A stretch of DNA of 64,000 bases from Thermoplasmata archaeon. Its GTDB lineage: Archaea; Thermoplasmatota; Thermoplasmata; Lutacidiplasmatales; SKW197. The translations under genes and the position numbers were made by a program. Shown here one piece after another: positions 12,045 to 59,605 of this stretch (within the stretch, counting starts at the first letter, position 1; each line of letters starts with the position of its first letter). The notes beneath the pieces were generated by a model. It did no database searches. It saw only the letters and a list, made by a program, of their open reading frames with translations, and was not told where the DNA came from. Location of the stretch: positions 1 through 64,000 of the forward strand of contig JAVZCK010000011.1 of the NCBI GenBank assembly GCA_038874435.1. The letters run 5' to 3'.

Positions 12045-12067
12045 GGATAAATGTAATATCAAGGAAG

Positions 12068-12173: not shown

Positions 12174-12204
12174 TATTAATCCATTCCACCGGTTGGTGAA
12201 CATT

Positions 12205-15200: not shown

Positions 15201-18200
15201 AATTGATAATAACACATTCTTTGGTCAGGGATACTACGGACTTGCCACATTTGCCTGTCAGAACATCTCTGTAGCGAGCAACGACTTCTACAACAATTCT
15301 ATTGGGTTATATGTAACGTCGACCATAAACTTTACGGCTGTTGGTAACAAGGTGTTAAATAATACTAATGCAGGAATTTACTTAGACACTATAGATACTA
15401 CAATTTCATATAATAATATCTCAAATAACAAAAATTATGGGCTTATCGCAGATATGTGCTACAGAACAAACATCACCTACAATGATTTCTATTACAACAC
15501 CAACTATTCGGTATATTTCAGGCTAACACCCGCTATGGGAAACTATGTGCATCACAATTACTTCTACGGAAACAACAATGCATCAAAGGGAAACAATGAT
15601 GGGAAATGCCAGGCAAGGGATGATACAGGAGCTACCCAATGGTATGATGCGGTTACACACGAAGGCAACTACTGGAGCAACTGGAATGGAAGCGGTTGGG
15701 GTACACCATTAGCGTATCCGATAGACGGGAGCGCTGGTGCAAGTGATTGGTATCCATTGGGCTATGGCAAGCGTGGGCCAATTCACATAAATGGCAATGC
15801 CGACTTTGCTGCACAGGCAGCTGGTGAGGGCTGGCAGGGGGATGGCACAGAGGGCAATCCCTACATAATTGAGAGATTGGAAATAGACGCAAATGGTGGC
15901 TCATACTGTATCTGGATTGAGAACACGGATGTGCATTTCATTGTAAGAGATTGTGATTTACATAATACTTCAACAGTTGCCCAACCTTATGCAGCACTTG
16001 CTTTCTCGAATGTGAAAAATGGTACATGTGAGAATATAAATATTTATGACGCATTTACTCCAAAGATTTCGAGTTCAAGCTATATCTGGCTGAACAATTT
16101 CACTGCAGATGGGGTTACCATCCAAACATCAGATCACATTGTCGTGAACGCCTCAAACACAGGGATGTGGTTCTGGCAATCATGTAGCTACATCAGGATT
16201 ACAAATAATACTCTAACAGGTGGTAAACGCATTGATGTTTGGGAAACCTCAAACTGTGAAATATTGAACAATACAGTAACTGGGGCTGTCGGTGGAGAGG
16301 CAATTAAAATATTTAAATCTACAAATACCACGATAATCAATAACACGCTTACCAACAACAAGATTGGCATCGGATTATCTAGTTCTTCAACTCACAATTA
16401 CATTGCAAACAACAACATTTCCAGCAACTCTCAGTGCGGAATATATGGCACGGGCTCATATAACGATTACACCACAATTATAAATAACAACATTTCTAAC
16501 AACGGACAGTACAACTTTGAGGATGGAGGGATAATTCTAGTCGGACATTATAATAATATAACTAACAATTATCTCGGAACCAACAAAGGATATGGAATCT
16601 GGGTCTTCAGCAGTGATTATGTAAGTATTACTAACAACACGATAGTTGGTATAGGGAGTACTAGGGGCCTTAATGTTGATGGGGCGTACGGTGTAATAAG
16701 TAACAATACGATTACAGGAAACTCAGATTATGGAGTGGTTCTAGAGACAAATTATGCAATATTCATGAACAACAATTGCTCTGGAAATGGTAATGGAATT
16801 TATATTCATGGTTCCAACAATACAATAGCACGAAATACGCTCCTCAACAATGTAGTTGGGATTGCCCTTTCGTATATTTCAAGCGACAACAATTTCACAG
16901 AAAATTATATAGCATTTACCAGCACCAACGGAATCAAAGCGAGTGATGGAGGTTCACCTGGAGCAAGGCGTAACCTCATAACTTACAACACAATTATTTC
17001 CAGTGGTTCCCACGGAATTTACTTATCATCCTCAACAGCAACGGGGAACATAATCCATCACAACCGCTTTATCGGAAATAACGGGGCAACCAAGGGTGTA
17101 AGTGGCAATTGCCAGGCCTACGATAGTGTCGGTGGCAACTACTGGTTTGATAGCGTTGCAAAGGAAGGCAATTACTGGAGTAACTGGGATAGAAATGGCT
17201 GGGGCACTGCGAGTGCCTACCCGATTGCTGGTGGTGCAGGAGCAAGTGATTGGTATCCATTGAGGACCGCAAGAGGCACAATTCACATAACCAGTAACAG
17301 TGAGTTCACCTCAGAAAATGGTGTGGTAAGTGGTGCAGGGACGCAAGCAAACCCCTACATAATTGCGGGCTGGGAAATAGACGCTGCTGGAAGCACCTAT
17401 GGCATATGGATAGAAAATACGGATGCATACTTCACAATCCACACCTGCCTTGTTTGGAACGCCACTGGTTCTGGTAGTCCTCCATTGGGCGCAGGCATCG
17501 CATTGAACAATGTAAGGAATGGCAAAATAGAGAACAACATCTGCAATGGTTCAAGGTATGGCATTTACCTTTATGGTGGCTCCACTTCAAACACGGTAAT
17601 TAACAACAACGCCTCAAACAACCAATACAGAGGCATATTCCTTGCTTCTTCAAGCACAAACCAAATCTTAAACAATACTGTTTTCAATAACACCATAGGA
17701 ATTTATCTAACCGCATCCAGTTATAACACTTTATCTGGCAACCAGATAAAGAGCAATTCCCAGCACGGATTCTACATCTCCGCAGCAAGCAACAGCAACA
17801 CCATAATAAACAACGATATAAAGAGCAACACGCAATACGGAATATATATCTACAGTTCTTCCCAGTACAACGATATAACGAATAACAATATTACTAAGAA
17901 TGGGGCACAAGGAGTCTACATTTACAGCTCCATTAATAACAACATAACCAATAACTGGATATACAAGAATACAAACTATGGCGTTTACATCACATCTAGC
18001 TCTAGTGGTAATACAGTGGTCGGGAACAGGTTTGTTGGTAACAATGGTGCAGGCAAAGGAGTATCAGGCAACTGCCAGGCGTATGACAATGTCGCAGGGA
18101 ACAACTGGTACAACGGCACCGCCCAACAGGGCAATTACTGGAGCAACTGGGATGGAAATGATTGGGGAACAGCAAGTGCCTATCCAATTGATGGAGGCGT

Positions 18201-27900: not shown

Positions 27901-27902
27901 AA

Positions 27903-30419: not shown

Positions 30420-30422
30420 TTG
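30408..30422 (+). promoter_or_regulatory. GGAGGT ribosome binding site driving a TTG start
   Basis: GGAGGT (30408-30413) lies inside the last codons of hdrA, six bases before TTG 30420, which directly follows the hdrA stop TAA. No ATG or GTG start is available that would keep the conserved N-terminus. Confidence 0.65.
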
Positions 30423-31312: not shown

Positions 31313-31697
31313 AGCTGAAATTGGAAAGCGAGAGAGTTTCATAAAACTTGTTGAGGAACTGTCAGGCCAGAATTTGTTTGCATGCTATCAGTGTGGCAGG
31401 TGCTCAGCTGGCTGTCCTATGGTGAAGAAGATGGAGCTAATTCCCAGCATGGTGATGAGGTTAGTGCAACTCGGTGATGAAAAGGTGCTCGATAAAAACA
31501 CATACTGGATTTGTGCATCCTGCTATACATGTGATGTTCGCTGCCCGAAGGGAATTGACATAGCAAAGGTGATGGAGGCATTGCGACAGATAAAGCTGAG
31601 AAAGAACATGAACTATGTGGACATAAGAAAGATTGAAGGGATTGAAGAACTGCCGCAGATTGCACTGATTTCAAATTTCCGTAAGTACACTGGTTGA
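31299..31697 (+). CDS. hdrC: Heterodisulfide reductase-type subunit HdrC
   Basis: A 132-residue ferredoxin-like protein with two [4Fe-4S] motifs, CYQCGRCSAGCPM and CASCYTCDVRCPKG, that passes electrons between HdrA and HdrB. GGAGGT precedes ATG 31299 within the end of the protease gene. It is soluble and lacks membrane helices, so it belongs to the cytoplasmic HdrABC type rather than the membrane HdrDE type. TGA 31695 is fused to the ribosome binding site of hdrB. Confidence 0.93.
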   Translation: MQINEAEIGKRESFIKLVEELSGQNLFACYQCGRCSAGCPMVKKMELIPSMVMRLVQLGDEKVLDKNTYWICASCYTCDVRCPKGIDIAKVMEALRQIKLRKNMNYVDIRKIEGIEELPQIALISNFRKYTG

Positions 31698-31706
31698 GGT
31701 GGTTAA

Positions 31707-32582: not shown

Positions 32583-32591
32583 GGTGGTTGA

Positions 32592-33284: not shown

Positions 33285-33289
33285 TAAAT

Positions 33290-41317: not shown

Positions 41318-43015
41318 ATGACACGGATGGTAATTTTATTTTCTGTATTTTTTTTCCTCATTCTTCCCATTTTTCTAAATGCTGAAGTTCCAATCTCTGC
41401 GGAAGAAAGTGTTTCGTCACCAAATCTCAAATACCAAGACCATTCATCAATATACATAAAAGGAGACGGGTACTTTACGAAATATAATGGTGTTGTAAAT
41501 GGGTCAGGAACCCACTCAGATCCCTATATAATAGAGGGTTGGAATATCTCAGGTGGCAGTTCTCCTGCTCTTGAAAAGTACTGGTGTATAAGAATAGAGA
41601 ACACTAGTGCACATTTTATAGTGAGGAATTGCATTATTGGGAATTATCTTCCTTCAAGTCAGCAATCAACACCGATTTGGCTTACAAATGTCACTAATGG
41701 AACTTTTGAGAATCTTTATTGCATGCCTTTCTCTAAGAAGTTATCTGGGTCCGTTTATATAGGAATGAGAGCATGCTCAAACATAATAATAAAAAATATT
41801 ACTTTTGCTAAAGGCACTGTGGTAACCACGATTTTTAGTATAGGTGAGAATTGCAGAAGAATAACTATAGAGAATGTTATAGATGAGAGTGTAAGTATTG
41901 GAAATTTTGCTTGGTTCGGGACTTGTAGCGAAATAACACTTCGCAATAACATAATGAGTAAGGGTGTAGAGTTGGATCCAGAACATGCGGATTCATGGTC
42001 AACGCACTCCATAGATTCTTCAAATACAATTAATGATAAACCAATTCTGTATTTAAAGAATTTATCACACTATTACATATGTGAGAATAATATGTCGCAG
42101 TTAATTATTGCAAATTGCACAAATATTATCATTACTGGCTTAAAATCTGATTGGAGTTTACAATACCCGATTAATATTGGATGTTCCTCACACGTGCGAA
42201 TCGTCAATAATAAATTTGAAAAATATGGTTCGATCTTTAATTTGGCGGATGTGCATAATGTGGACATTTCCTATAATGTGTTCGGTGGTTCCGAAATCCT
42301 ATATAATATCCATCTCGGAATAATATTGCATTCTACAAATGTTAGAATTCATCATAATAATATCCTAATTAACTCCATTTACTATGATATTCACTCATTT
42401 TTGTCTTCAGGAATAAATTCTATTTATTTCAATGATTCTTGCGAAGGTAACTACTGGCCACCTCAGTTACTAGAAATCTGTGATGTCTATGACAATGATG
42501 GAAACGGGATTGGTGATAAACCTCTTCCAGTAGACCCGATAGCTAATCTTACTCCTCTTGATTATTATCCATTGATGAGACCTGCAAGCTACTTTGATTT
42601 TTTCCCAATTGCCACCTATCACCGAGATGAGAGTTTCTTGAGCATTGTTGCACGAGTGGCGTCCCTGCGAAACATCACTCGCCTTGTTCTGTGTTATAAA
42701 TATGCTGATGAACATGAGTGGTACCAGCGAATTGCCTATCCATCAACAACCACAACAGAATATGAGTTTGGGGTTTTAATTTCTCCATACAAAGCAGGTA
42801 TCATCCATTACTATTTTTCAGCAACCGACGAGACAAATACAACATTGAGTTCTATTCCATTCTATGTAAAGATTTTGGAAGTGCGCAGTGAATCACAATT
42901 TTCCTATTTTGATCTGGCAATTTGCTCTGTTGGAGCAATTGTGACACTTTTTGTTGGGATTTATCTGCTCCGAAAAGTGAGAGGGAATAGGAAAAGTGGG
43001 GTAAAAAGATACTGA
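41318..43015 (+). CDS. Membrane-anchored beta-helix surface protein
   Basis: A 565-residue protein beginning directly after the stop of the caspase-like gene, with GGTGGGAGTGG as ribosome binding site. It has a signal peptide (MTRMVILFSVFFFLILPIF), the header NGVVNGSGTHSDPYIIEGWNI, a shorter beta-helix with a footer EGNYWPPQL...DYYPL, an Ig-like domain and a tail SESQFSYFDLAICSVGAIV ending in basic RKVRGNRK. It looks more AT-rich than its neighbours. The tail resembles those of other surface proteins in the window, so it is a candidate archaeosortase substrate. The operon link suggests that it is secreted together with the peptidase. Confidence 0.78.
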   Translation: MTRMVILFSVFFFLILPIFLNAEVPISAEESVSSPNLKYQDHSSIYIKGDGYFTKYNGVVNGSGTHSDPYIIEGWNISGGSSPALEKYWCIRIENTSAHFIVRNCIIGNYLPSSQQSTPIWLTNVTNGTFENLYCMPFSKKLSGSVYIGMRACSNIIIKNITFAKGTVVTTIFSIGENCRRITIENVIDESVSIGNFAWFGTCSEITLRNNIMSKGVELDPEHADSWSTHSIDSSNTINDKPILYLKNLSHYYICENNMSQLIIANCTNIIITGLKSDWSLQYPINIGCSSHVRIVNNKFEKYGSIFNLADVHNVDISYNVFGGSEILYNIHLGIILHSTNVRIHHNNILINSIYYDIHSFLSSGINSIYFNDSCEGNYWPPQLLEICDVYDNDGNGIGDKPLPVDPIANLTPLDYYPLMRPASYFDFFPIATYHRDESFLSIVARVASLRNITRLVLCYKYADEHEWYQRIAYPSTTTTEYEFGVLISPYKAGIIHYYFSATDETNTTLSSIPFYVKILEVRSESQFSYFDLAICSVGAIVTLFVGIYLLRKVRGNRKSGVKRY

Positions 43016-43317: not shown

Positions 43318-46194
43318 TTACTCCTCCAATTTACTTTCTTCAGTTTCAGGTTCTTCTTGGATTTTTTCAGATCCCATCTCTTTTTTCTTCTCATCTTTTT
43401 TTGGCTGCTGTGGCTTTTTCGTTCTCTTCCAAGCAAAGCCGACAATCAATGCACCTGAAATAATGGAAATGAGTAGCAAGAGGATGTAGAAGTATGGCAG
43501 TTTCTCGTCTGCAACAGGGTTAGGACTTGGTGGCTGGCTAGTGGTTTTGTATACATAGACCATGCAAGAATTCTGTGGGGCTTGGGAGGGAGCATGGGCC
43601 ATATTTGAAAGGGAATCAATTGCCTCAATAAAATACATTATTCCTTCTTCTGGGACCGCATCTCCGGGAATAACTGCAGAATAATTCCCATTTGCATCAA
43701 GGGACATGAGTATTACTGACCAGTTCGTCTGGGTTTGGCTTTTATAATATAGTTTGGCGGTTAGAATACCACTCTCATCAGTTATGTAAGCAGTAATCTT
43801 TATGTCATCTCCGTATTTGCTATGAGTTACTGGAATATGCCTGATGCACGGCGGTGTGATGTCCACTGAGGAAGATGTAGTAAAATTCCATGAAAAATCT
43901 GTTGTGAGATAATTCCCATCCTGGCTTTTGAGCGTCCATGCTTTTACGCTCACAGTGTAATTTGTAAGTGGTGCGAAATTCGCAAGAGCGTCAAGAGTTA
44001 GTAGCGTACCGTTTTCATCCCAGAACACATTGTAGGGAATGGACGGAGAGACCTCTATGCTGTCAGGTATTGAGCTTGTGTTCATTCTTTGAGAAAAGTG
44101 AATGGTTATGTTTGAATTTAATGGGACACTCGAGCCAGTGGGCGAGCAACTCAGGACATAAACTGGATTTGTTGTGTTCACAAGTGTACGGAATTTCCAG
44201 GTATAATTGGACTGAATATGAAGCCCAGGAACTGAAGTATCCCTTGCAATTGTGGAGACAGTTACATGACACCATGTGTCCTCCTTGATCTGCGCATCTG
44301 GCCTGAATATGAAGCTGGAGGTTGAATAACTCACCAAGCTGCATGGCACTTTGTTTCCATCAGCTATAAGTGAGAATGCATCTATCACTGAAGAGGTATT
44401 CATCGGTTCCGAAAAACCTAAATTAATGTCTGGCAGGAGGGAAACACCCATTTCCTTGTCTCCTGGTGAAACAAAAAGTAATTCTGGTGAGATGGAATCA
44501 ATGAGAAATCTCGGACTCTGGTAGTATGTTATTTTACCTGTGAGCGTATTCTGGACTGATGCCCTGAAGTATGCGTTATGATGCTGAAGTGAGGGGACAT
44601 ACCAGTAGTATGATGTGACATTGGAAGGAAGGTCATTGAAAAGAACATAGGGGAGCTCTTCTATGAATACACTCAAGCTTGTCACTGTGGCGCTAGGCGT
44701 TTCGTTTTCTATTTCCCATACAATCTGGCATGTGGTATTTCCATTTATTCTGTCACTTGAAGGTGAAACAATTCTTATGGTGGGAATCTTTGGATTTGGA
44801 GCGAGATTAAGAGTCGGGTCACCCAGAAGAACATGCTCAACAAGAACAGCATACACAGAAGGATTGGGTGGAAAGTATGTATCATTAGATGGAAAATTTC
44901 TGTAGTAGAAGAGGTCAGAGAGATTTGCAATAGCTTCTCTAAAGCAATCGCCGAGCAAGCCAGTTTCGTTTGCGCACTGCTCATAAAAACGACTGTCCAC
45001 GAGGTTTGCATCTGACAATACCCAGGTTACCCTGGTTGAACCAATTGTTGCTATTGCACCCCCGTTTTCCCATAACAAAAACCGCTCTGCGATGCAATCC
45101 TCTCCAGAGTAGTTAACTCCACAGTCAAAACCCGCAGAATCGCAAGAAAAGAAGGTAATTACAGGCAATTTCTCTTTATTGGTCAGATTTGCAATATCTT
45201 CAGAGTTGTAAACAGGTAGAATCCCGCCCTCCTGTGTGCCAAGATAACTGTAATTTCCATGACATGCAAATGCTACAAATTTGCTCCCATTGTTTATGGC
45301 GGCAGTAACATTTTCTGGATTAAGAAAATATGGAGAATCTGATGTGCCACTCCCCTCATAAACTGTGATTTTTCGGTAACCATTCATGAAGCTTCTGTAG
45401 ATGTAATCACAATGTTCTTCACCCTCATAACCGTTTCCTGAAAAAGTGTTTCCACCAATGAGAGTGATGTTGTTGAACCATGGTTCTAGCGTGTGGTTTA
45501 CTGCTTCGTAATTTATGATCTTGTTTACAATCAAAGCCATTTCCGTAACATTGCCGGCAGGCAATCTACCAAGTGCTACATCAGGAACACCGTCAATTTG
45601 ATCGCTATCTGACCAGAATTGGGTCCAGGAGGTGGCATTAGCAAATTCTCCAAACACATTGTTTCCATTTGCATCCCAGGAGCAGAAAGAACCGTTCTGG
45701 GTGTACAGGTCTGCATAATACAGGTCACAGGGAGTGTAGTTGTTTTCATTGGGATAGACAGGAGACCAGACCTCTGGCAAATAACAGTATCTGGGTGGAA
45801 GCACATCTGCATCTCCGCCTAAAATTACATACTTTATTCCCAGGTTTTCCTTCCCATACTTTATGAAGAGCTTCATGTCTTCCTGGAGGTCTCTGCCTTC
45901 TGGATAATCTGGGATGTCCTCTAAATTAACTAGAATTGTGTTTATGCCGAGAGAGTTTTTATGGACCACAAGTCCTGCAAGTGTTGAATTGAACATAGAA
46001 GGAGCGATAATGAGCAGGTCATACTGTGGTGCCAGTGCATTCTGGGAGTGTTCGTTGTAATCCGTGTCTGAAACCCCTATGTAGGTGGTTAATTGTGCAT
46101 TTGTGTCCAGCCTATTCAAGGGTGCATTGAGTGTCATCACAGGCATTATGAACAACAGGGTAATTACCGTGGCAAAAATCTGGTATCTACTCAT
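43318..46194 (-). CDS. Family C25 (gingipain-like) cysteine peptidase, membrane anchored
   Basis: A 958-residue secreted peptidase. After a signal peptide (MSRYQIFATVITLLFIMPV) comes a C25 domain (about 55-430) with YDLLIIAPSMFNSTL, KYVILGGDADVLPPR, DVALGRLPAGNVTE, the catalytic His in VAFACHGNYS (His312) and the catalytic Cys in TFFSCDSAGFD (Cys351). Ig-like domains and two SbsA/Big5-like domains (DKEMGVSLLPDINLGFSEPMNTS) follow, then a membrane helix (YFYILLLLISIISGALIVGF) and a 40-residue Lys/Glu-rich cytoplasmic tail. The frame extends upstream to 46242, but ATG 46194 follows a GGGAGGG site. It overlaps the HExxH gene by 8 bases. The domain is known from gingipains, which cleave after Arg or Lys; specificity here is unknown. 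Confidence 0.88.
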   Translation of the reverse strand: MSRYQIFATVITLLFIMPVMTLNAPLNRLDTNAQLTTYIGVSDTDYNEHSQNALAPQYDLLIIAPSMFNSTLAGLVVHKNSLGINTILVNLEDIPDYPEGRDLQEDMKLFIKYGKENLGIKYVILGGDADVLPPRYCYLPEVWSPVYPNENNYTPCDLYYADLYTQNGSFCSWDANGNNVFGEFANATSWTQFWSDSDQIDGVPDVALGRLPAGNVTEMALIVNKIINYEAVNHTLEPWFNNITLIGGNTFSGNGYEGEEHCDYIYRSFMNGYRKITVYEGSGTSDSPYFLNPENVTAAINNGSKFVAFACHGNYSYLGTQEGGILPVYNSEDIANLTNKEKLPVITFFSCDSAGFDCGVNYSGEDCIAERFLLWENGGAIATIGSTRVTWVLSDANLVDSRFYEQCANETGLLGDCFREAIANLSDLFYYRNFPSNDTYFPPNPSVYAVLVEHVLLGDPTLNLAPNPKIPTIRIVSPSSDRINGNTTCQIVWEIENETPSATVTSLSVFIEELPYVLFNDLPSNVTSYYWYVPSLQHHNAYFRASVQNTLTGKITYYQSPRFLIDSISPELLFVSPGDKEMGVSLLPDINLGFSEPMNTSSVIDAFSLIADGNKVPCSLVSYSTSSFIFRPDAQIKEDTWCHVTVSTIARDTSVPGLHIQSNYTWKFRTLVNTTNPVYVLSCSPTGSSVPLNSNITIHFSQRMNTSSIPDSIEVSPSIPYNVFWDENGTLLTLDALANFAPLTNYTVSVKAWTLKSQDGNYLTTDFSWNFTTSSSVDITPPCIRHIPVTHSKYGDDIKITAYITDESGILTAKLYYKSQTQTNWSVILMSLDANGNYSAVIPGDAVPEEGIMYFIEAIDSLSNMAHAPSQAPQNSCMVYVYKTTSQPPSPNPVADEKLPYFYILLLLISIISGALIVGFAWKRTKKPQQPKKDEKKKEMGSEKIQEEPETEESKLEE

Positions 46195-49100
46195 CTTTTT
46201 TCCCTCCCTTTGCCCTTTGCGTAATCCAGACAGCATAACCAACAGAGCTAATCAACACGCACACAGAAATAACCAGGAACCAGAACGCGAACTGCGATTC
46301 TCCAGGTGAAGGAATAATCTGAGATTCTGGTTCCTCCGGTATCTGGGCAGAGATTGTTTCCACTTCTAAACACTCAACTCCATTTGTATCAGCGACGGTA
46401 ACTGCAAAATAGTATGTTTTGCCTTTCTGCAAACCCTTCAAATCGCAGGAAGTGGCATTTCTCTCAGAAATTACAGTAAATGGAGCCATACCAGAAACAT
46501 TGGTGAACTGACTCTGAGAAATGTATATTCTGTATTCAAGAAAATTTGGAATTGAACTCAAAAGCCAGGAAATTGAGACAGAATCTGCCTTCACCTCGTT
46601 GATTTTGAATCCCTTGATTTTTTCTACATGACTTTGTGTTATCTGAATGTTTATTTCGCACTGGTCAGTCAGACCGCCACCATCACGTGCTAGAACGCGT
46701 AGTGTGTGCATACCTTCAGAGAGAGCGGAAGTATTGAATTCACTTCCATAACCTATTATTCCATCTATGCTTGAAAACCACACTATGGAAACATTACCAA
46801 GATGACCATCTTCCACATCAGTGGCGGTTGCCTCAAACCTTATTGTTTCACCCAATGCGAAACGCTGCCCCTCTTGTGGGCTGATGAGTGAGACGGCAGG
46901 TGCATGGTTTGGCACAATGTCCAATCTTTTTATGATTGAGGCAGAGAGACCCGCAGCATCTACAACAGTGAAGTTGACATAATAGGTGCCGGGAGCAAGC
47001 TGGTATTTTGTTTTTCCCTCATAAAAACCAGAGGTGGTGTTGAATTCCAGAGTAAACTTGTAGGTGTCTAACTCAACCGTAATTCCGTTATCAGGAATAC
47101 GCACATTATCAGTTGCATTTACCCTAAATTGAATTTCATGGCCAGAATATGTTGTTTCCGGATTTATTTCTGCATCGGTAATCACAGGTGGTTGCGTATC
47201 GTTCAACACATAAATTGTAATTGTCTGGCTTGCTTTATTTCCATCAGTATCATTGACAGTTAGAGTAATTGTATGAGTGCCTCCACTGAAATTCGAAATT
47301 GTGAGCACATTTCCTGCACCCAAAAAGCCCTCTTCTTTTGATGTCCAGTTGAAAAATTGAGAGTTGATGTTCTCATCTTCTGCATCAGTTGCATAACCTC
47401 TGAGTTCAATTTGAGTGCCTGCTGGAAAACATGCTTTATCTATCGGTGTGGTGATTTTAACGATTGGTGGTTTTTTGGAAACTGAGAACTGCTGTGAATT
47501 TGAATTGCCTGCGTTAAAGCCATCTGTGGCTATCACCCTGAAAACACAGTTATCTCCACCAGCATAATCAGAATGATTGAAAATGTAGCTTGTTTCTTCA
47601 AGTTCCTCTGCAACTGGCTCCCAGTTATTTCCGCCATTGCTTGAGTAAAGCAGTGAATACTTTATCTTGTCGCCGTCTGCATCGCTGGCACTCCATTTGA
47701 TTTCAAATGAACCGTTGGTGAGTTGACGAACCGAATTGATGTTGACCACCGGGCTATTGGCACTTGGAACAATCTCTTTCAGGGTTATGTTTCTGTATCT
47801 GAATACGAGTTTCTCAGAGCCCTTTGGGAATGGAAGCACAACCAGAAAAGAATACCATTTTTTGCCCTGAAAATAGGCCTTGAAGCTTGTATTTGCAAGA
47901 ACAGTTCCGTTGGAAGCACAGGCCTCAACAATGTAGTCGCCTGGGTCCTCTGGATTGCTGACCTCATCAGGATTTCCAGTTGTTTTGTAGAATGGGTCAA
48001 GATACAGTGTTCCATTCTTGTGGACTGCACCACTCAGGATTAGCATCTCTGTTTGAGCAAAGAGCTTAGGTTCTGCCTTTTCGTTGGTAGTAAGAAGGGC
48101 ATTAAAGAGCTTCTTGTAGCAATCAAGGTCAACCCAGTTATTATAACGAACATTTGAATTAGCAGCACCCATAAAGCAGTATGTTTCCGGGCCTGGTGTG
48201 TAGGTCCCTGCAGGAAATACATATTCAAGTTTATTTTTTGAAGCTGAGAATATTGTGGTGTTTCCCAGTTTGTTGCCAAGCGGTGGGTTTACATCATACT
48301 CTTCTCCACTGAAAAATATATAACTGTTTAAACAGAGACCATAATAATGTGCAGTTTCATGGGGGAGAGCAGAAGGTACAGCATCATTCACAAGTGGTGC
48401 ACATCTCCTTCCTGCGAAACTTGCACCTGATATGCTACCGAGATACTCTTTTGAAAGCACTGCAACATAAAAGTCATAGTTGGGGTCATTCTGTAAATTG
48501 TAGATTATCAACTTTTTCATATACTGGGTTGCTATGTAATTTGTGTCGAAAATATCTGCATCAAATGGGACAGGTATCGTCCACCAACTCTCTGCAGGGA
48601 TAAGCTTGGTGCGATAATTGCTGGGAGTAATTGGATATGTATCTTTAAGTAAGCTGACGGCTTCATCCATGAATGGATAGATGTCTACAGGGTACGGAGT
48701 AAGTGGGAAGTAAACTGGTTTGAAAAGGGCCCTTATCATTCTTGTGGGTTTGGTTTCCACTGTAATCTCCATTTCGTTGTTCTTCTCCTCCAGTTCCGGA
48801 ATCTTCTTATTTGGGTCGACCACGGCCTTTATCTTGTGGGTGCCTGCAGCAAGTCCATCCAACAAGAAATTAAACGTGTCCTTGCATAGCCAGAGTTCGA
48901 CATTCTTGTAATCCTTTCTGCTCGCTTTTATACTGTTTTTTACAATACCTGCTGACACTCCATCTACGAAAAGTTCAACTTCTACTTCTGGTAGGGCACT
49001 TCCAGCTGAATCCAATTGCACCCTGACCGCAGTGGGTTTGTCTGCAACCAGAGGGGCATTTTCAATCACCTGAAGGACCTGGATATTTGTTATGGTAAGA

Positions 49101-50236
49101 TCTGGGTAATTCCACCAGGGTGAGACAATCACATTCCCAGTTACATTGTCTCCAGTGCCGTTCGGGTTCAGGACAAAATGTCTAGGTCCTGTGTTGTTTC
49201 CCCACCAATTATCTGTGGCATTTATTACTGCACCGCTCAGTGGTCCAGTCAAACCTGCGACTTTGTTGGAATAAATTAGATTTTTCTTTATGCGCGGGGT
49301 AACTGTGGATTCATTACAGTTTATGCCAATGGTATTGTTGCAGATGATGTTGTTCTCAATCACAGGAGCTGCATCTGGCAGACACATAATTCCGTAAGTG
49401 CAATTTTCAATTCTGCAGTTAGAGATAACTGGAGAGTTTTTGTAGGCCTCTATGCAATGAATTCCACTAAAATTACAGTAATCAAGCACACATTTACTCG
49501 GGGATATTGACGGGTCATCAACGAATCTGTGGCTTATTAGGATTGTACCCTTTCTGGTTTCGCTGCAGTTTATAGCCCCGTAAAAATTGATTGGTGATTT
49601 TTCTGTTCCAACAGCGCGTAATGTTCCGTTTTTCCCATCTATAGATTCATATACAAAAATCCCAAAGACCTTTGGGGACTGTTTTTTTGACTCAAAATAA
49701 ATGTCAACACCTGGCTCTATTACGAGATTGCCAAAAATATACAGTCCAGCATCATCGTATTCATCTGTGATAACATAGGGGCTCAATGCCTTGGTCCATA
49801 CATCGTTGCATCTCATATAAAATCCGCCAACTCTTCCAATCAGTACGCTTATTGGATTGCTAACCACAGTTGCTGTCCCGTTTGTTTTTGAAATTTGGTA
49901 GGTATAGTTGTTTCCTTTAGAGACAGCGGAATCCTGATACTCTCGTATGTATGTTGAAGAAGTAAAGGTTAGAATGGTAACATTGTTTTTTGTGAGAGTA
50001 TAGGTACAGTTGCCGGCCATGTAAAAACCATCCTGCCAGCCCAGATCTACAATGTTGCTACCTGCATAATAGAGGTATAACTCAATTCCACCAGCATCTG
50101 CAATAGATGCAGTATTTGCATTCTTATGTTCATTTTCTAAGTTCAATGTGGATTGAAGCCCAGCAGCAGGTATATTCGCAAGAAAACATATACACACAAA
50201 GCATGCAACAATCTCACGAATGCCTTTCTTAGACAT
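46187..50236 (-). CDS. Surface protein with beta-helix, CARDB, HExxH metallopeptidase-like and PKD/Ig domains
   Basis: A 1349-residue secreted protein, first gene of an operon with the C25 peptidase. Seen: signal peptide (residues 1-26), beta-helix (about 170-350), CARDB domain (about 380-495, ending VDPNKKIPELEEKNNE), a domain of about 220 residues with ALPHETAHYYGL (His626-Glu627, His630) and a later CFMGAAN (Met-turn-like), then PKD/Ig-like domains (SWSASDADGDKIKYSLLYSS style), a fibronectin III domain and a tail ESQFAFWFLVISVCVLIS followed by a basic end. HExxH suggests a zinc metallopeptidase; the third zinc ligand is not obvious because the metzincin position carries Leu. A TATA-like AAATATTAA lies about 23 bases before ATG 50236. 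Confidence 0.75.
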   Translation of the reverse strand: MSKKGIREIVACFVCICFLANIPAAGLQSTLNLENEHKNANTASIADAGGIELYLYYAGSNIVDLGWQDGFYMAGNCTYTLTKNNVTILTFTSSTYIREYQDSAVSKGNNYTYQISKTNGTATVVSNPISVLIGRVGGFYMRCNDVWTKALSPYVITDEYDDAGLYIFGNLVIEPGVDIYFESKKQSPKVFGIFVYESIDGKNGTLRAVGTEKSPINFYGAINCSETRKGTILISHRFVDDPSISPSKCVLDYCNFSGIHCIEAYKNSPVISNCRIENCTYGIMCLPDAAPVIENNIICNNTIGINCNESTVTPRIKKNLIYSNKVAGLTGPLSGAVINATDNWWGNNTGPRHFVLNPNGTGDNVTGNVIVSPWWNYPDLTITNIQVLQVIENAPLVADKPTAVRVQLDSAGSALPEVEVELFVDGVSAGIVKNSIKASRKDYKNVELWLCKDTFNFLLDGLAAGTHKIKAVVDPNKKIPELEEKNNEMEITVETKPTRMIRALFKPVYFPLTPYPVDIYPFMDEAVSLLKDTYPITPSNYRTKLIPAESWWTIPVPFDADIFDTNYIATQYMKKLIIYNLQNDPNYDFYVAVLSKEYLGSISGASFAGRRCAPLVNDAVPSALPHETAHYYGLCLNSYIFFSGEEYDVNPPLGNKLGNTTIFSASKNKLEYVFPAGTYTPGPETYCFMGAANSNVRYNNWVDLDCYKKLFNALLTTNEKAEPKLFAQTEMLILSGAVHKNGTLYLDPFYKTTGNPDEVSNPEDPGDYIVEACASNGTVLANTSFKAYFQGKKWYSFLVVLPFPKGSEKLVFRYRNITLKEIVPSANSPVVNINSVRQLTNGSFEIKWSASDADGDKIKYSLLYSSNGGNNWEPVAEELEETSYIFNHSDYAGGDNCVFRVIATDGFNAGNSNSQQFSVSKKPPIVKITTPIDKACFPAGTQIELRGYATDAEDENINSQFFNWTSKEEGFLGAGNVLTISNFSGGTHTITLTVNDTDGNKASQTITIYVLNDTQPPVITDAEINPETTYSGHEIQFRVNATDNVRIPDNGITVELDTYKFTLEFNTTSGFYEGKTKYQLAPGTYYVNFTVVDAAGLSASIIKRLDIVPNHAPAVSLISPQEGQRFALGETIRFEATATDVEDGHLGNVSIVWFSSIDGIIGYGSEFNTSALSEGMHTLRVLARDGGGLTDQCEINIQITQSHVEKIKGFKINEVKADSVSISWLLSSIPNFLEYRIYISQSQFTNVSGMAPFTVISERNATSCDLKGLQKGKTYYFAVTVADTNGVECLEVETISAQIPEEPESQIIPSPGESQFAFWFLVISVCVLISSVGYAVWITQRAKGGKKDE

Positions 50237-52687: not shown

Positions 52688-55600
52688 ATGTGGAAAAATA
52701 TGAGCAGAATCTTCGGGATGGGTGTAGCGATTGCCTGTGTTCTCAGCCTTTTCCCATTGCCAGCAGCAACTGCGGCACCAGCGCTGACGGTCTTGCCAGA
52801 TGCAGAAATTGTGGGCTCTGTTGTGATTGTAAGCGGCACTGGCTTCGGCTCGAATGTGGCGGTGAACATATACTGGGATAGCTTGGGAAACCTCCGTAAT
52901 AGTACAACTACATCAAGCACAGGAACTTTCTCAATTCCAGTCGTGATTCCTCCAGCAGTGGCAGGGAAGCACACAGTAATAGCGAGAGATACCAGCAGCA
53001 ACCAGGCAACAGCACAGTTCACAGTAGTCCCTTTTCTGACAATCTCACAGGCCAGTGGACATGTAGGTGACGATGTGACAATCTCACTCACTGGTTTCGG
53101 TGCAAATCTCGAAGTTGATTTCTACTGGGATGGAAATTTCTGGGGTTCTGAGTACACAAATAATGTTGGAAGCAAAACCTTCACATGGCAACTACCAGAG
53201 CTTTCTGGAGGTTATCGCGTCCTTTCTGCAGTGGATGAAGGGGGAAATACAGCCAGCACTCAGTTTCTGGTTTTCTCCACATTCACTCTCAACCCTTTGC
53301 AAGGGAGATATGGAGACACTGTGAATTTTGCAGGGAGTGGCTTTGGAGCCAGCACAGAGGTAAAACTCTATATGGATAACCAGACAAACTATCTTACCTC
53401 TGCATACACAAACAGTGGAGGAAATTTCTCAGGCACTTTCACAGTTCCGCAGTTACCTGGTGGAGCCCACACTGTATTTGCAGTGGATTCCTATGGAAAC
53501 AGTGGAAGTGCTGGCTTTGAGATTCTACCACTTCTTCGCCTCTCAAAGTACTCGGGTTTCGTGGGAGATGTAGTTTCAGTTTTTGGATTTGGTTACACCG
53601 CAAACAACAACATCTCAATCTCTTGGGATACACCCCAAATACCTACCATCCCTGGCATTGTCATAGTCCAGTCAAGTGGCACCTTCACCTGCGAGATTGC
53701 AGTGCCTTTCACGCCTTACGGAACCCATGTTGTAACAGCAGCAGATGAATCCAGCTTGAGCCACTCTGTTTCCTTTTCTGTTTATCCAAGCATTACTGTG
53801 GAGCCAGACCATGGTCTCCCTGGAATCTTTGTCTCTGTAAACGGTACTGGCTTTTCTGCAGGTGTTTCCGTTTCCTTGATATGGGATTTCGGACTACCAG
53901 GATACCAGGCACTTGGGGCAACAAATACGAACACCACAGGAAGTTTCAACCATCTAGTCCAGATTCCCTCTGACCAGAATGGCGTGCACACAATCACTGC
54001 AAAGGATGAGAACTGGCACTTAGCTGTCGCCACATTCTATCTGGGACCTTCGCTCTCCATTGCGAATTCCACAGGTGTCGTTGGCTCGTATAACACAATT
54101 TCTGGCTATGTGTTTTCCCCTGATGCAAATGTGACAATCTACTGGGATGGAGAACCTCTTGGAAATACAAGAACCGACGCTACCGGTGACTTCACATTCT
54201 CGTTTTTGATTCCAGCATCTCAGTACGGATTCCACACCCTTTCTGCAGTGGATGAATACAATGTTTACGCAGAAACTACATTTTTTGTAGTGCCTGAAGT
54301 TACTGTCCTTCCTGTTTCTGGCACTGTGGAAAGCACTACAACAATTACAGGGACTGGTTTCTCAGGAAATTCGATTGTCTACATATACTGGGATGGTACG
54401 AACACCTACAGGAGTGAGAGAACAGACCAACAAGGGAGTTTCATTCTTACATTTACAGTGCCTGAGGCAGCATATGGTAGCCACATCATTGAGGCAAGAG
54501 ACATCACAGGGGTTTCTGCAACAACAGAGTACTCCATTATTTCAAGCATTCAGTTGAGTAAGAGTAGAGGGTATGTTGGCGAAGCGTTTACTGTGTTCTG
54601 TCATGGCTTTGCTCCAAACTCTCCAGTTACTCTGGTGTGGGATAATGTTTCTACCAGTTATTATAACATGACCACAGATTCTGGCTTTGCTGAAATCCAT
54701 GCAAATGTTCCCGCTGCATTAGCGGGTGTTCATGAGTTGTATGTTTACGATTCCTTGCTCCACATTGTGCAACCCCTCCTTTTCACAGTGCTTGCGCTCG
54801 ATGCACCTCAACCGATTTCCCCATCTGGCTTCGTGAACACAACCACAGTTTTGCTTTCATGGACTGCTGTTCAGAATGCGAGTTTTTACATTGGGCAGTT
54901 TTCTTCAGACCCACAGTTTGGCACTGGCGTTATTCAGTTCTCCACCAGCTCTACAACTTACCAGATAACTGGCCTCATCCATGGAAACAGATACTACTGG
55001 CGGGTTAAAACTGTTGATAGTGCTGGAAACGAGGGCAGTTTCTCAGCAGCACTGGATTTCACTGTAGACACCCTGGCACCTTCCTCTTTGCTTACTGGTC
55101 CCAGTTACATAAACACAGTCACATTTACTCTTGGTTACGCTGCTGTTGATGGCACGAGTGGAATTGCCTCAGTTGCGCTATACTACGCCTTTAACTCCTC
55201 GGATTTTGAGTTCTACGCAGCATCCACACTTTCCACAGGCACCTTCAGTTTTACTGCAAAATATGGAGACGGCATCTATAATTTCTACACTGTGGCAAGG
55301 GACGGAGCAGGAAATGTTGAACCAGTGAATGGGACGAAACTCACAGTTGTTCTTGACACTACCAGGCCTTCAGCATTTGTTTCTCCGTTGCCATCCGTCG
55401 TGAACACCAGCATTATAGAATTGGATGTGAGTTATGCAGATACTGGAAGTGGTGTAAGCTACTTTATGCTCTTCTATTCCACAGATGATGGAATTACTTG
55501 GGAGTTTTGCGGGAATTATACCACAACGCGTGTACAATTCGCGGCTCCGACAGAGGGAAAATATGTGTTCCAGGCAATTGCAGTGGATTATGCAGGCAAT

Positions 55601-57901
55601 GTGGAGGCAATGGGTGGAGGAGAGGCATGGACATTTGTTGACCTCACAGAGCCAGTTCTGTCGGTGAGTGTGGAGGGCACAATTGGCGGTAATGGCTGGT
55701 ATCTTTCAACAGTAAGAGTTGTGTTGCAAGCAGAGGATGCAAGCAGTGTGAGCATCTACTATTCTCTCGATGGTGGGAATTTCTGTTTTTACACCTCAAC
55801 AATCAGTATTTCTGATGATGGACTCCATAACCTTGTCTGTTATGCAGTGGATGCAGCAGGAAATGCAAATTCTTCTGTGAGCATCCAGATAAAGATAGAT
55901 AGAACCGCACCAGTCACCCAGCACTCCCAGATTCTTGAGTGGTACAATGCCACATATGCCACAATAAACTTTTCAGCGAGCGATGGAGCAAGTGGTGTGA
56001 AATCCACAAAAGTGAGAATAGACGATGGAGAATGGATTACGCTAAACACTGGTTCTGGCACTTCTCCACTGACGGTTATAGGAAATGGTATCCATAGAGT
56101 GCAGTATTACTCTATGGATGTTGCCGGGAATCAAGAGCCACTACAGGAATTTTATGTGAAAGTAGATGGAGTTGCACCCACTACAGAACAAACGATTTCT
56201 GGCAACACTGGCAGGAATGGTTGGTTTGTTTCTGGGATAAAGATCTGGTTAACTTCAACAGATGCTGTAAGCGGAGTTTCGGCTGTATATTATTCAGTGG
56301 ACAATTCCACATTCAGGCAATACGCAGAGCCCATTGAGATTACCACAGATGGCATTCATCTCGTAGAGTATTATGCACTAGATGTTGCAGGGAATGTAGA
56401 GGCAAAGAAGACGATTACAGTGAAAATTGATACAATGGCTCCCTCTTCCTCAGTTAATGCAGGTGCAGAATGGTATAAAACATTGCCAGTGAATCTCACG
56501 ATAGATGTTGCTGATACTGGGAGCGGGGTGGCTGGAGTGTATTACTCAATCAACGACCTGCTGTGGATAAAATCCAGCACAATTTCTCTCAATGCAAATG
56601 GAGTTTACACGATAAGGTATTATGCAGTTGACAACGCTGGGAATATGGAAGAGATAAATTATGTGGTGGTGCGAATAGATGCTGAAGCCCCTAGAACAGA
56701 ATACACTGTGAGTGGTAACCTTTCCCTCAACGGATGGTATGCAGGAACGGTGCAGGTCTTCCTGAGTGCAGAGGATGATGTAAGCGGTATCTCTACAATC
56801 TGTTTCTCAGTTGATGGCTCTCCATTCTTTAATTACACTGGCCCTGTCTGGTTGACTGGTGATGGAGTCCACATCCTGAGATTTTATGCAGAGGATAAAG
56901 CAGGCAATGAGGGAGTAGAGCAGTTCCTTACGATAGGAATCGACGCAACTCCTCCAGAAACCACTGCAAATGCCTCCTCTACATGGTATTCTCAAACCCC
57001 AGTGGTTCTGGAACTGGCTGCAGTGGACGAAACTTCCGGTGTGGCAGTAACTTTCTACAGAGTGGATGGTACCTCATGGAGAACTGGCACAGAAGTAAAT
57101 CTCACGATGGACGGAATTTATACGATTGAATTTTACTCTGTTGACATTGCTGGGAATCCAGGGAGGGTCCAGCGTCTCACCGTGCGAATAGATACCACAG
57201 CACCAGTTGTGGATTTGAAAGAGATGCCAAAGGAAGAGAAGCCAGTTTCTGGCATGCTTCGAGTGATATTCGAGGCGAGTGACCTCTCTGGAGTTGCTAG
57301 AGCCACATACTCAATAGACGGCACTACAAGAACACTTTTGGCTGCAGGCAATCTCTACACCATTGAGATTGACACTTCTTCTATTGAAGATGGCGCGCAT
57401 GTAATTGCAATTGAGGTTACAGATAACGCAAACCACACCACACGGCTTACTAAAACAATCAGAGTGGATAACAGCCCACCAGCAATCAGTTCTCTTACGC
57501 CCTCAGGAGGAGATGTGGTTGCAGGAGAAGTCAGTATCGTTCTCATTCTCGCTGACGACTCAGAAATCTTAGAAATTACACTCTACCTTGACAACAGCCC
57601 AGTAACATTTGAGAGAGAAGGTAACACTGTGAAATACAACTGGAAAACCACACTGGCGGATAATGGAAAGCATGTCCTCAGAGTTTATTTGAGAGATGCG
57701 GCGGGAAACATGAAAGTTTATGAGCAAACATTTTCAGTGAACAATCCAGACATGGCTCCAACCATAATCACTATCGCTTTAATTGTGGCTCTTGCTGCAG
57801 CAGGTGCAGGACTGATTACAATCAGGAAACCTGTAAGAACCGTGAAAGTGGCAAAACTAGAGAAAAAAGAAAAATTTGAAGATAAGGAGGTGAAAAAATG
57901 A
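52688..57901 (+). CDS. Large surface protein of Ig-like repeats (TIG-like and DxAGNxE repeats)
   Basis: A 1737-residue secreted protein. The signal peptide ends near AAATAAPAL. The first 680 residues carry eight similar repeats of about 90 residues, each with a GTGFGxNxxVxIYWDG core, like IPT/TIG-type Ig folds. A fibronectin III domain follows (TVLLSWTAVQNASFYIGQF), then about eight repeats ending DxAGNxE with a YYSVDGxxF core, as in bacterial Ig/OmpL47-like domains. The end has a membrane helix (TIITIALIVALAAAGAGLI) and a cytoplasmic basic tail. No enzyme motif. Most likely a stalk, adhesin or surface-layer component. ATGA overlap joins it to the next gene. Confidence 0.8.
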   Translation: MWKNMSRIFGMGVAIACVLSLFPLPAATAAPALTVLPDAEIVGSVVIVSGTGFGSNVAVNIYWDSLGNLRNSTTTSSTGTFSIPVVIPPAVAGKHTVIARDTSSNQATAQFTVVPFLTISQASGHVGDDVTISLTGFGANLEVDFYWDGNFWGSEYTNNVGSKTFTWQLPELSGGYRVLSAVDEGGNTASTQFLVFSTFTLNPLQGRYGDTVNFAGSGFGASTEVKLYMDNQTNYLTSAYTNSGGNFSGTFTVPQLPGGAHTVFAVDSYGNSGSAGFEILPLLRLSKYSGFVGDVVSVFGFGYTANNNISISWDTPQIPTIPGIVIVQSSGTFTCEIAVPFTPYGTHVVTAADESSLSHSVSFSVYPSITVEPDHGLPGIFVSVNGTGFSAGVSVSLIWDFGLPGYQALGATNTNTTGSFNHLVQIPSDQNGVHTITAKDENWHLAVATFYLGPSLSIANSTGVVGSYNTISGYVFSPDANVTIYWDGEPLGNTRTDATGDFTFSFLIPASQYGFHTLSAVDEYNVYAETTFFVVPEVTVLPVSGTVESTTTITGTGFSGNSIVYIYWDGTNTYRSERTDQQGSFILTFTVPEAAYGSHIIEARDITGVSATTEYSIISSIQLSKSRGYVGEAFTVFCHGFAPNSPVTLVWDNVSTSYYNMTTDSGFAEIHANVPAALAGVHELYVYDSLLHIVQPLLFTVLALDAPQPISPSGFVNTTTVLLSWTAVQNASFYIGQFSSDPQFGTGVIQFSTSSTTYQITGLIHGNRYYWRVKTVDSAGNEGSFSAALDFTVDTLAPSSLLTGPSYINTVTFTLGYAAVDGTSGIASVALYYAFNSSDFEFYAASTLSTGTFSFTAKYGDGIYNFYTVARDGAGNVEPVNGTKLTVVLDTTRPSAFVSPLPSVVNTSIIELDVSYADTGSGVSYFMLFYSTDDGITWEFCGNYTTTRVQFAAPTEGKYVFQAIAVDYAGNVEAMGGGEAWTFVDLTEPVLSVSVEGTIGGNGWYLSTVRVVLQAEDASSVSIYYSLDGGNFCFYTSTISISDDGLHNLVCYAVDAAGNANSSVSIQIKIDRTAPVTQHSQILEWYNATYATINFSASDGASGVKSTKVRIDDGEWITLNTGSGTSPLTVIGNGIHRVQYYSMDVAGNQEPLQEFYVKVDGVAPTTEQTISGNTGRNGWFVSGIKIWLTSTDAVSGVSAVYYSVDNSTFRQYAEPIEITTDGIHLVEYYALDVAGNVEAKKTITVKIDTMAPSSSVNAGAEWYKTLPVNLTIDVADTGSGVAGVYYSINDLLWIKSSTISLNANGVYTIRYYAVDNAGNMEEINYVVVRIDAEAPRTEYTVSGNLSLNGWYAGTVQVFLSAEDDVSGISTICFSVDGSPFFNYTGPVWLTGDGVHILRFYAEDKAGNEGVEQFLTIGIDATPPETTANASSTWYSQTPVVLELAAVDETSGVAVTFYRVDGTSWRTGTEVNLTMDGIYTIEFYSVDIAGNPGRVQRLTVRIDTTAPVVDLKEMPKEEKPVSGMLRVIFEASDLSGVARATYSIDGTTRTLLAAGNLYTIEIDTSSIEDGAHVIAIEVTDNANHTTRLTKTIRVDNSPPAISSLTPSGGDVVAGEVSIVLILADDSEILEITLYLDNSPVTFEREGNTVKYNWKTTLADNGKHVLRVYLRDAAGNMKVYEQTFSVNNPDMAPTIITIALIVALAAAGAGLITIRKPVRTVKVAKLEKKEKFEDKEVKK

Positions 57902-58377
57902 AGGATGTGTTTGATTCACCTTTAATCATTGGGCTGACTGCCAGAAATTTAATTGCGATTCTATCTGGTCTTCTTCTCCTTCTCTCTCCTTTCCTTCTCT
58001 GGACCGTATTCTGGGACAATGGAGTCCAGCAGAAACTTGACGGGTTTGAGTTGCAGCGAGAAGTAGGTGCTTTTGCTCTGCTCCTCTTACCCCTCTGCGG
58101 GCTTGCAGCGATGCTTTCTGGCTTTATTCACTCAAGGTTCCAGGAACTGCGGGGCAACAGGGTTGTGCTGGCATTTGGATTCTCAATAGTTTTCCTGGCT
58201 TTCGTGGCTCTTCTTGCTACGACAGTGCAGGCAGAACTCTGGATGAGCAATGTTGCTGGTACATCCTTCCTTAACAATCTGATGCTTGGATGGTATGCTG
58301 CTCTCACAGGCACTCTCCTCCTTCTCTTTGCACTCATAGTGCCAAGGCAGAAAAAGTTATTCCCAGAGCGTGAATAG
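57898..58377 (+). CDS. Uncharacterised four-helix membrane protein
   Basis: A 159-residue protein with four hydrophobic segments (about 18-40, 60-80, 92-115 and 130-148), a short periplasm-facing loop and a basic C-terminus. I do not recognise a family. It is translationally coupled to the large Ig-repeat gene (ATGA, with AAGGAGGTG seven bases upstream), so it may help export or anchor that protein. Its last 21 bases overlap the convergent DUF357 gene. Confidence 0.7.
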   Translation: MKDVFDSPLIIGLTARNLIAILSGLLLLLSPFLLWTVFWDNGVQQKLDGFELQREVGAFALLLLPLCGLAAMLSGFIHSRFQELRGNRVVLAFGFSIVFLAFVALLATTVQAELWMSNVAGTSFLNNLMLGWYAALTGTLLLLFALIVPRQKKLFPERE

Positions 58378-58650
58378 CTTATCGTCTCTGTCCACATCAA
58401 AGAGCCCGATTCTTGCTCCCGCATCAAGCCAGCCATGGGCATAGTTCACACAGGCAAATGCATTCACAAAATCTCCCTGCTGGTAAAAATGAAGGGCATC
58501 GTTGTAGTAAGCCCTTGCCATGCCTAGAAAGTCCTCTGCAAGGCGGTGAAGGTAGGAACGCTCAGGAACTGCGATTTTCACAACTTCAAGCCCTTTTCTT
58601 GTCTTTTCCAGATAGTCCTTCAGCTTTTCTTCGTTTATTTCCCTTTTCAT
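58357..58650 (-). CDS. DUF357 family protein
   Basis: A 97-residue, mainly helical archaeal protein of the DUF357 family, recognised from YLHRLAEDFLGMARAYYND and the following AFACVNYAHGWLDAGARIGL. Function unknown. Its start lies inside the end of the archaeosortase gene (65 bases overlap), so the two are probably co-transcribed. ATG 58650 follows GGTG by six bases; GTG 58659 is in frame but less likely. Confidence 0.82.
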   Translation of the reverse strand: MKREINEEKLKDYLEKTRKGLEVVKIAVPERSYLHRLAEDFLGMARAYYNDALHFYQQGDFVNAFACVNYAHGWLDAGARIGLFDVDRDDKLFTLWE

Positions 58651-59605
58651 CTTTTTCACCAGGAATCATGTATTTGAAAGCGAGGAGCCAGAAACAGCAC
58701 ATGTAAATCATCTGATAAAGGTCTCCAAGTGCAAAATACTCGTTTTTGTGCCACCAGAGCATTGTGGGCATATCATAGTAGTAAAGCAAGAGAGCAAGGG
58801 TGAGCAGACGGAGCATGTTCACGAAAAAAGCACCGATAGTACCTATCACAACAATCAGGGGTTTGAGCCACCACTTGGTTCTGAAATTGAGCACAAGCGC
58901 AGAGGAAAGGGCTGCGAAAGTGCCCATGCCCATCACTCCTGTGCACCCACCTGCAATCCACATCTGGCTCACGCCTTTATGGGTCTGGATGTAGAGGAGG
59001 GCACCCTGTCCACTTCCAGCTAGGCCTGACCACGACTCAATTCCAATGCTGGAAAGAAAGCCAGCCAGGGCATCTGCTTCTGGCTTTGCCAGGATATTGG
59101 CGGCTGCTGCGTAAAGCCCTGTGTTCTCGCTGTAGAAGAGAATGTTGAGAATTGAAAGGGAAACTAGCAGGGCAAGGACTGGGTAGGTGTACTTTATCTT
59201 GCGGTAGCCATAGAAGAGGAAGAGAACTCCTGCGAGAAAAATTGCGTAATTTGTGACACCGAAGCCAGTGTTTTCACCACCAGAAACCAGGGTTTTGAGG
59301 GGGACTGAAATAAAACTGAAGGCAAGGACTGCAAGTGCAAAGATAAACTCGTTAAAGTCAGGTAGCTCATGGTCATCCCTGTAAAACTCAAATTTTATGT
59401 AGACAACCATCAGCATTACCACTGCAAAAACAAAGAAGACACTCAGAGCACCTTCATAGCCAGCAAGGTTTGAGAGTAGAACAGAGCCCAGAATTGTGAG
59501 CACGAAGAGGGTGAACTTGTTGTTTCGGATGGTCTCCTGGATGCTAGACGAAGAGCCTGAGACAGGAGCCAATAATTTTTCCTTTTTATCAACTTTCTCT
59601 GTCAT
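58586..59605 (-). CDS. Archaeosortase/exosortase family transpeptidase
   Basis: A 339-residue integral membrane protein with about eight helices. The conserved triad of exosortase/archaeosortase enzymes is visible: Cys221 in IAGGCTGVMGMG, Arg266 in VNMLRLLTL and His286 in MLWWHKNEY. These enzymes cut C-terminal sorting signals (short motif, membrane helix, basic end) and attach surface proteins to lipid. Several proteins in this window end that way. The frame extends upstream to 59728, but that segment lies over a promoter region; ATG 59605 follows AAGGTG by three bases. The exact subfamily (ArtA, ArtC or other) cannot be decided. Confidence 0.88.
   Translation of the reverse strand: MTEKVDKKEKLLAPVSGSSSSIQETIRNNKFTLFVLTILGSVLLSNLAGYEGALSVFFVFAVVMLMVVYIKFEFYRDDHELPDFNEFIFALAVLAFSFISVPLKTLVSGGENTGFGVTNYAIFLAGVLFLFYGYRKIKYTYPVLALLVSLSILNILFYSENTGLYAAAANILAKPEADALAGFLSSIGIESWSGLAGSGQGALLYIQTHKGVSQMWIAGGCTGVMGMGTFAALSSALVLNFRTKWWLKPLIVVIGTIGAFFVNMLRLLTLALLLYYYDMPTMLWWHKNEYFALGDLYQMIYMCCFWLLAFKYMIPGEKDEKGNKRRKAEGLSGKDKKRA

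Follow-up and report, generated by a model that had tools for sequence, protein, structure and literature searches.

A divergent archaeosortase, probably of the ArtC branch, and a family of P-V-x-E sorting-type tails in a Thermoplasmata genome

The exosortase/PEP-CTERM system of bacteria uses a V-P-E-P motif. For archaea, the part of PMC5244752 available to us states that archaeosortase A (ArtA) recognises PGF-CTERM and archaeosortase C (ArtC) recognises PEF-CTERM, and the same pairing is named in the accessible text of PMC9723798. Substrates of ArtA are described in the accessible part of PMC7157517 as undergoing C-terminal processing and lipid anchoring. Here we compare with these systems an enzyme and a set of protein tails from a Thermoplasmata archaeon, starting from a stretch of 64,000 nucleotides (contig JAVZCK010000011.1, positions 1 to 64,000), hereafter the window. 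The reading frame at 58586-59605 of the window encodes a genuine archaeosortase, i.e. a member of the exosortase/archaeosortase superfamily with an intact triad. Its features are:

58586..59605, (-) strand: archaeosortase, probably ArtC branch, diverged (TIGR04178, PF09721, sister ortholog)
58943..58945, (-) strand: catalytic-type Cys codon, C262 in the numbering of the 380-residue frame, in GGCTG (position computed from the frame)
58808..58810, (-) strand: catalytic-type Arg codon, R307, in VNMLR (alignment of eight relatives)
58748..58750, (-) strand: catalytic-type His codon, H327, in WWHKN (alignment of eight relatives)

The frame is open to 59728, and 59605 is the likely start, being the one matched by the sister ortholog. 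The product is a multi-helix membrane protein which passed the cut-offs of two models, TIGR04178 for archaeosortases (37.4 bits, cut-off 23) and Pfam PF09721 (45.6 bits, cut-off 25.7). Residues C262, R307 and H327 are invariant in the alignment of eight relatives, so the archaeosortase with a full Cys-Arg-His triad proposed in the original prediction stands, as far as enzyme and triad can be read from sequence. The same alignment shows a 4-residue insertion directly after the His that occurs only in this genus. Around the catalytic Cys, the window enzyme reads CTGVM where the f15 relatives have CSG[IV]E, and the Glu found after C-S-G in the nearest relatives is absent in this genus. A scan of genome contigs gave one locus, that of the sister genome, whose ortholog is 84 % identical. 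The AlphaFold single-sequence model (pLDDT 46) was too poor for the geometry of the triad.

The best subfamily model was that of ArtC, TIGR03762. The window enzyme resembles ArtC in being an exosortase-type membrane protein with Cys-Arg-His, and the tails described below share with PEF-CTERM (TIGR03024) the V, the E, the helix and the basic end. However, the window enzyme scored only 28.9 bits and its sister ortholog 30.6 bits, under the curated cut-off of 100.

To look for tails we read part of the genome in stretches, which came to 952,611 bases (44 %) with 721 filtered ORFs. Profile A2 was built from 21 tails, all from outside the window and chosen by eye for a glutamate, so the glutamate is present in its alignment by construction. 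The original prediction had proposed a genome-wide profile search, with more than ten matches confined to secreted proteins as support for a sorting signal. This test succeeded: with A2 the whole genome gave 44 places at E ≤ 10, and the tails found were in exported or membrane-anchored proteins only. Seventeen of these places lay in DNA that had not been read, and 15 of the 16 inspected (C39, E 3.1, was left aside) were C-terminal tails of long frames with the E core. In the sister genome, every one of the 17 matches at E ≤ 0.1 had the E core where its frame ends. Profile A3 has 35 rows, 26 of them taken from the held-out and the sister matches. It scored above 9 bits in 13 of 3,224 sampled six-frame ORFs and in 15 of 501 from the follow-up stretches; 27 of these 28 matches ended within 14 residues of the stop and the remaining one 30 residues away. 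Such a tail, consisting of P-V-x-E, a few residues, a transmembrane helix and a basic (K/R) end, is carried by some 40 large proteins of this genome that are exported or held in the membrane. These PVxE tails are a real, genome-wide family of the sorting type. The earlier suggestion of a PEF-like but not identical signal is thereby borne out, with P-V-x-E as its core.

The models available to us covered the family poorly. In an NCBIfam scan of 35 tails, PEF-CTERM matched two at E ≤ 1 (best 2.7e-5) and Heimdall-CTERM gave a weak match to eight; an earlier scan of 21 tails listed PEF-CTERM for none, and beyond this a few named relatives gave no more than isolated weak matches. PVxE tails share the conserved E before the helix, the basic end and the many substrates per genome with the bacterial PEP-CTERM system, but that system is bacterial and the general PEP-CTERM model was listed for none of the 21 or 35 tails. 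We found no name for the PVxE tail in the NCBIfam scans or in the literature searched, in which no paper mentioned archaeosortase together with Aciduliprofundum and those naming PEF-CTERM were, as listed, not on Thermoplasmata. Because the NCBIfam models that we used miss most of the set, they would leave many surface proteins unrecognised in genomes of this sort.

The motif was characterised on 40 curated tails of this genome, excluding the window proteins P0004 and P0005 and keeping one 69-residue frame. The residue before E is S in 17, P in 10, N in 4 and another in 9 tails; V stands two positions before E in 29 and P three positions before E in 24. After E we counted L in 8, F in 6, S in 5 and I in 4 tails, besides others. 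In ten ortholog pairs between this genome and the sister, read by eye, E was kept in all ten and the flanking residues differed in about half. Given that F follows E in so few tails and that E is kept in the ten pairs, the F of the original prediction is not the constant residue, and the fixed residue of the tail is the glutamate. A proline directly before E occurs in 10 of 40 tails here and in 0 of 16 sister tails (one of 17 matches, PITE at L155, was excluded), versus all 34 tails from family f15, families f5 and f6 and other families (3 of 37 loci, with no tail visible, were excluded; Fisher 1.8e-12 for this genome against these families). In the profile with which these distant tails were searched, S is commoner than P before E, so their uniform proline was not made by the profile. 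F follows E in 28 of the 34. Unlike PEF-CTERM, the tails of this genome as a set do not follow P-E-F at the motif. Compared with the [VI]-P-E-F of relatives, V and E seem to have been kept in this genus while proline and phenylalanine became free to vary. This would be a sorting code caught in the act of drifting, an enzyme and dozens of tails in one archaeal genus having left the P-E-F rule, and it makes directly testable which residues of the enzyme read the proline.

Within the order, the window enzyme was found in two of 106 genomes, both of this genus. These two gave 31 and 17 tail matches at E ≤ 0.1, and the other 104 gave four at most (best 0.0035). The family with its C-terminal place and constant glutamate, and its restriction to the genus within the order, are likewise shown by the sequence. 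ArtA is also present in both genomes, so the distribution at the level of the order cannot by itself say which enzyme uses the PVxE tails. At the level of the class, where at most 19 candidates were scored per genome, 29 of 400 genomes had two or more tails (A3, E ≤ 0.01), and a TIGR04178 match was present in 22 of these 29 versus 57 of the other 371 (Fisher 1.2e-11, a p value that is too small because the genomes are related). We also built a tree of 72 archaeosortases, those retrieved out of all that matched. In it the window enzyme falls with those of f15 (97/84) and with two from f5 (94/91), apart from ArtA, at a place where the tool warns of long branches meeting. One of the f15 enzymes is a bona fide ArtC (TIGR03762, 361 bits, cut-off 100), and in each of the six f15 genomes where the family was matched there is a single archaeosortase, of the ArtC branch. 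The tails of f15 are mostly [VI]-P-E-[FLI], and in one related genome (L226) the direct neighbour of the ArtC-branch gene ends with IPEF, a helix and basic residues. Tree position, co-occurrence and this one gene neighbour support a link between the window enzyme and the PVxE tails.

The co-occurrence has exceptions. Six f15 genomes (G277, G297, G311, G363, G391 and G403) have PEF-type tails and no archaeosortase by TIGR04178 or by the ArtC-branch alignment, among them G297, which is 93 % complete and has 23 tail matches at E ≤ 0.5. In a further f15 genome with tails (G253) we found only a fragment of an archaeosortase, and in G269 of family f25 none was detected. Incomplete assemblies may explain some of these cases, not obviously all. 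Since tails occur in genomes with no detectable enzyme, they may outlive the ArtC-branch enzyme or do without it in some lineages.

In the tree the window enzyme groups with ArtC and its relatives, whose genomes carry [VI]-P-E-F, and this suggests that enzyme and tails are a diverged ArtC/PEF-CTERM-like pair whose proline has become optional. Our preferred reading, to which we give a probability of roughly 0.72, is that this diverged ArtC-branch archaeosortase recognises the PVxE tails, as a lineage-specific loosening of the archaeosortase C/PEF-CTERM pair. The enzyme would recognise P-V-[S/P/N/T/V..]-E, a few residues, the hydrophobic helix and the K/R cluster. By analogy with ArtA of Haloferax, cleavage would take place close to the glutamate after insertion of the helix into the membrane, and the new C-terminus would then be joined to a membrane lipid. 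That the window enzyme rather than ArtA uses these tails, as well as the cut site and the lipid product, is what we infer for this genus.

ArtA and its own signal are represented in the window by one protein:

9177..12062, (-) strand: beta-helix surface protein of 961 residues, carrying a PGF tail (the genome also has ArtA)
9180..9278, (-) strand: PGF tail GKITPGFETMLW..KRRYKP of the 961-residue protein

The second archaeosortase of the genome is ArtA (TIGR04125, 112 bits, cut-off 75). A PGF profile made of three tails of this genome and one of the sister recovered those three and two new ones, and all five consist of TPGF, a helix and basic residues. One of the five proteins (C17) lies about 2 kb from ArtA. 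The TIGR04126 model at E ≤ 10 gave two matches, one of them real, listing one of the five PGF tails and not that of the window protein at 9177-12062. The 961-residue protein, with its TPGFETMLW, evidently belongs to the ordinary ArtA/PGF-CTERM system, apart from PVxE. That system (TIGR04125/TIGR04126) has the same tripartite tail plan as PVxE and is found in the same genome, but it differs in enzyme clade and in motif.

It could be argued that ArtA processes both PGF and PVxE tails and that the window enzyme does something else, as ArtA is present in both genomes with PVxE tails and five PGF tails are few for a dedicated enzyme. We consider this unlikely. No second archaeosortase is present in the six f15 genomes that gave a family match, although tails of the [VI]PEF type occur in f15. 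In addition, ArtA-type and ArtC-type enzymes occupy separate parts of the tree, PGF and PVxE tails have no motif in common, and the pairing given in the accessible part of PMC5244752 is ArtA with PGF and ArtC with PEF. A BLAST comparison of the window archaeosortase with the ArtA of this genome gave no match at E ≤ 0.01.

Another explanation, which we regard as improbable, takes the PVxE tails for ordinary, uncut membrane anchors multiplied by duplication of beta-helix genes, the glutamate being merely common before a helix. In its favour, 17 of 43 polytopic control proteins also have a glutamate near the last helix. Duplication has contributed as well: 24 of 41 tail proteins are related in sequence over the 100-200 residues that precede the tail, and the number of tails owes something to it. 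The upstream contexts nevertheless form 15 clusters, which argues against one spreading anchor. The abundance of glutamate was assessed on 40 proteins chosen by topology only (one C-terminal helix and a short basic end), including the window proteins and three PGF proteins. A glutamate stood near the start of the helix in 35 of them, compared with 17 of 43 polytopic controls (Fisher 9.6e-6), and aspartate near the helix in only 14 of the 40, though the two residues do not differ in frequency in the protein bodies. The conservation of E in the ten ortholog pairs while adjoining residues change, and the near absence of the tails from the 104 other genomes of the order, also speak against plain anchors. 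A clustering of the tail proteins by whole bodies was discarded; it placed 36 of 39 in one cluster, chained together by modular domains.

Besides the PGF protein, three proteins of the window had been quoted in the original prediction:

12193..19545, (+) strand: 2450-residue beta-helix (NosD-type) surface protein, clear PVxE member (A2 profile 2.4e-5; sister ortholog)
19444..19542, (+) strand: PVxE tail LGGPVSEFSVLPW..RKRRN of the 2450-residue protein
46187..50236, (-) strand: 1349-residue surface protein, possible tail member (PGESQFAFWF; weak profile score)
46190..46309, (-) strand: possible PVxE-type tail of the 1349-residue protein (E kept in the sister, Q-F not)
41318..43015, (+) strand: 565-residue surface protein with a signal-type N-terminus, uncertain tail member (RSESQFSYFD; below-threshold scores)
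42884..43012, (+) strand: uncertain tail of the 565-residue protein (below-threshold profile scores)

All four quoted tails are present in the sequence, each at the C-terminus of a long protein of the exported type. Their joint status as related substrates survives only in part. The VSEFSVLPW tail of the 2450-residue protein is a clear member of the family, reaching 2.4e-5 with A2, which was built without any window sequence, and its sister ortholog keeps PVSE, reading PVSEG where the window has PVSEF. TPGFETMLW is a PGF signal instead. Membership of the two ESQF tails is uncertain, the 1349-residue protein (P0005; 4.7 bits with A2, negative with A3) being possible and the 565-residue protein (P0004; -2.6 bits with A2, also negative with A3) more doubtful. 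The sister ortholog of the 1349-residue protein reads SAESSLAFWF, so that ESQF became ESSL, with E-S kept and Q-F not. Profile A1, made of the four quoted tails, found those four and one chance match, and the mixed tails are therefore no usable family. A single [SP]-[EQG]-F signal common to all four proteins has in its favour that F precedes the helix in each, but the scarcity of F after E (6 of 40), the replacements in the sister (ESSL, PVSEG) and the match of the PGF protein to a separate PGF set in a genome with ArtA make it very improbable.

Of the 41 tail proteins, 13 have their first membrane helix only at residue 110-540, behind stretches of cytosolic type. This is unlike a plain secreted substrate and counts against our preferred reading. 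We scanned the domains of nine such proteins of this genome and of two sister orthologs. Helix-hairpin-helix was found in two proteins and one sister ortholog, KaiC together with DUF835 in one protein, DUF835 with a zinc ribbon in one and zinc ribbons in one; TPR, under its cut-off, appeared in one protein and its sister ortholog, and the rest of those scanned had no named domain. The first helix is followed by a long exported part (NosD beta-helix, FG-GAP, DUF11 or DUF2341) and then by the PVxE tail. In many other tail proteins the first helix is preceded by 45-70 hydrophilic residues containing G-F-T-N-G repeats, and an N-terminal tag of the kind MKLESKTTKSLGLRNGRDNTRGFTNGLTNGFTNGNG was seen ahead of it in many of the NosD type.

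L042:9891-14873, L025:7851-12053, L051:11547-18008, L136:2669-6169, L056:4023-8909 and L049:2946-8624: tail proteins with a cytosolic-type start (helix-hairpin-helix, KaiC/DUF835, zinc ribbon, TPR)
L130:1984-6060, L129:4289-7201, L134:3406-7353, L146:6047-8455 and, weakly, window 12193-19545: tag of the MKLESKTTKSLGLRNGRDNTRGFTNGLTNGFTNGNG type

About a third of the tail proteins have this mixed cytosolic-plus-exported build, which one would not expect of sorting substrates. If the tail were cut, the cytosol-first proteins would stay held by their first helix, and anchoring cannot then be the tail's only role. It is conceivable, though less likely than not, that the genus uses the relaxed P-V-x-E code on membrane-spanning proteins with a cytosolic domain of regulatory type, where the enzyme could set a two-point tether or a sensor. 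If so, cutting such a tail would change how the outer end is held and would not release the protein. On this reading, the combination of cytosolic domain, single helix, very long extracellular part and sorting tail would be a class of substrates; we have not seen one of this kind described.

The immediate neighbours of the archaeosortase gene are:

57898..58377, (+) strand: membrane protein of 159 residues, gene convergent with that of the archaeosortase (order kept in the sister, 80 % identity)
52688..57901, (+) strand: Ig-like (Big) surface protein of 1737 residues whose tail is long and charged and is not PVxE (order kept in the sister)

No clear PVxE gene adjoins the archaeosortase within the window, which also counts against our preferred reading. 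Elsewhere in the window, a C25-type peptidase frame (43318-46242, (-) strand) with a long charged C-terminal tail and no PVxE overlaps the end of the gene of the 1349-residue surface protein (46187-50236, (-) strand), and the pair is kept in the sister with 64 % and 70 % identity, respectively. The region 25553-34945 holds a compact run of frames which, named by eye, resemble ferredoxin/2-oxoacid oxidoreductase, heterodisulfide reductase and fumarate reductase.
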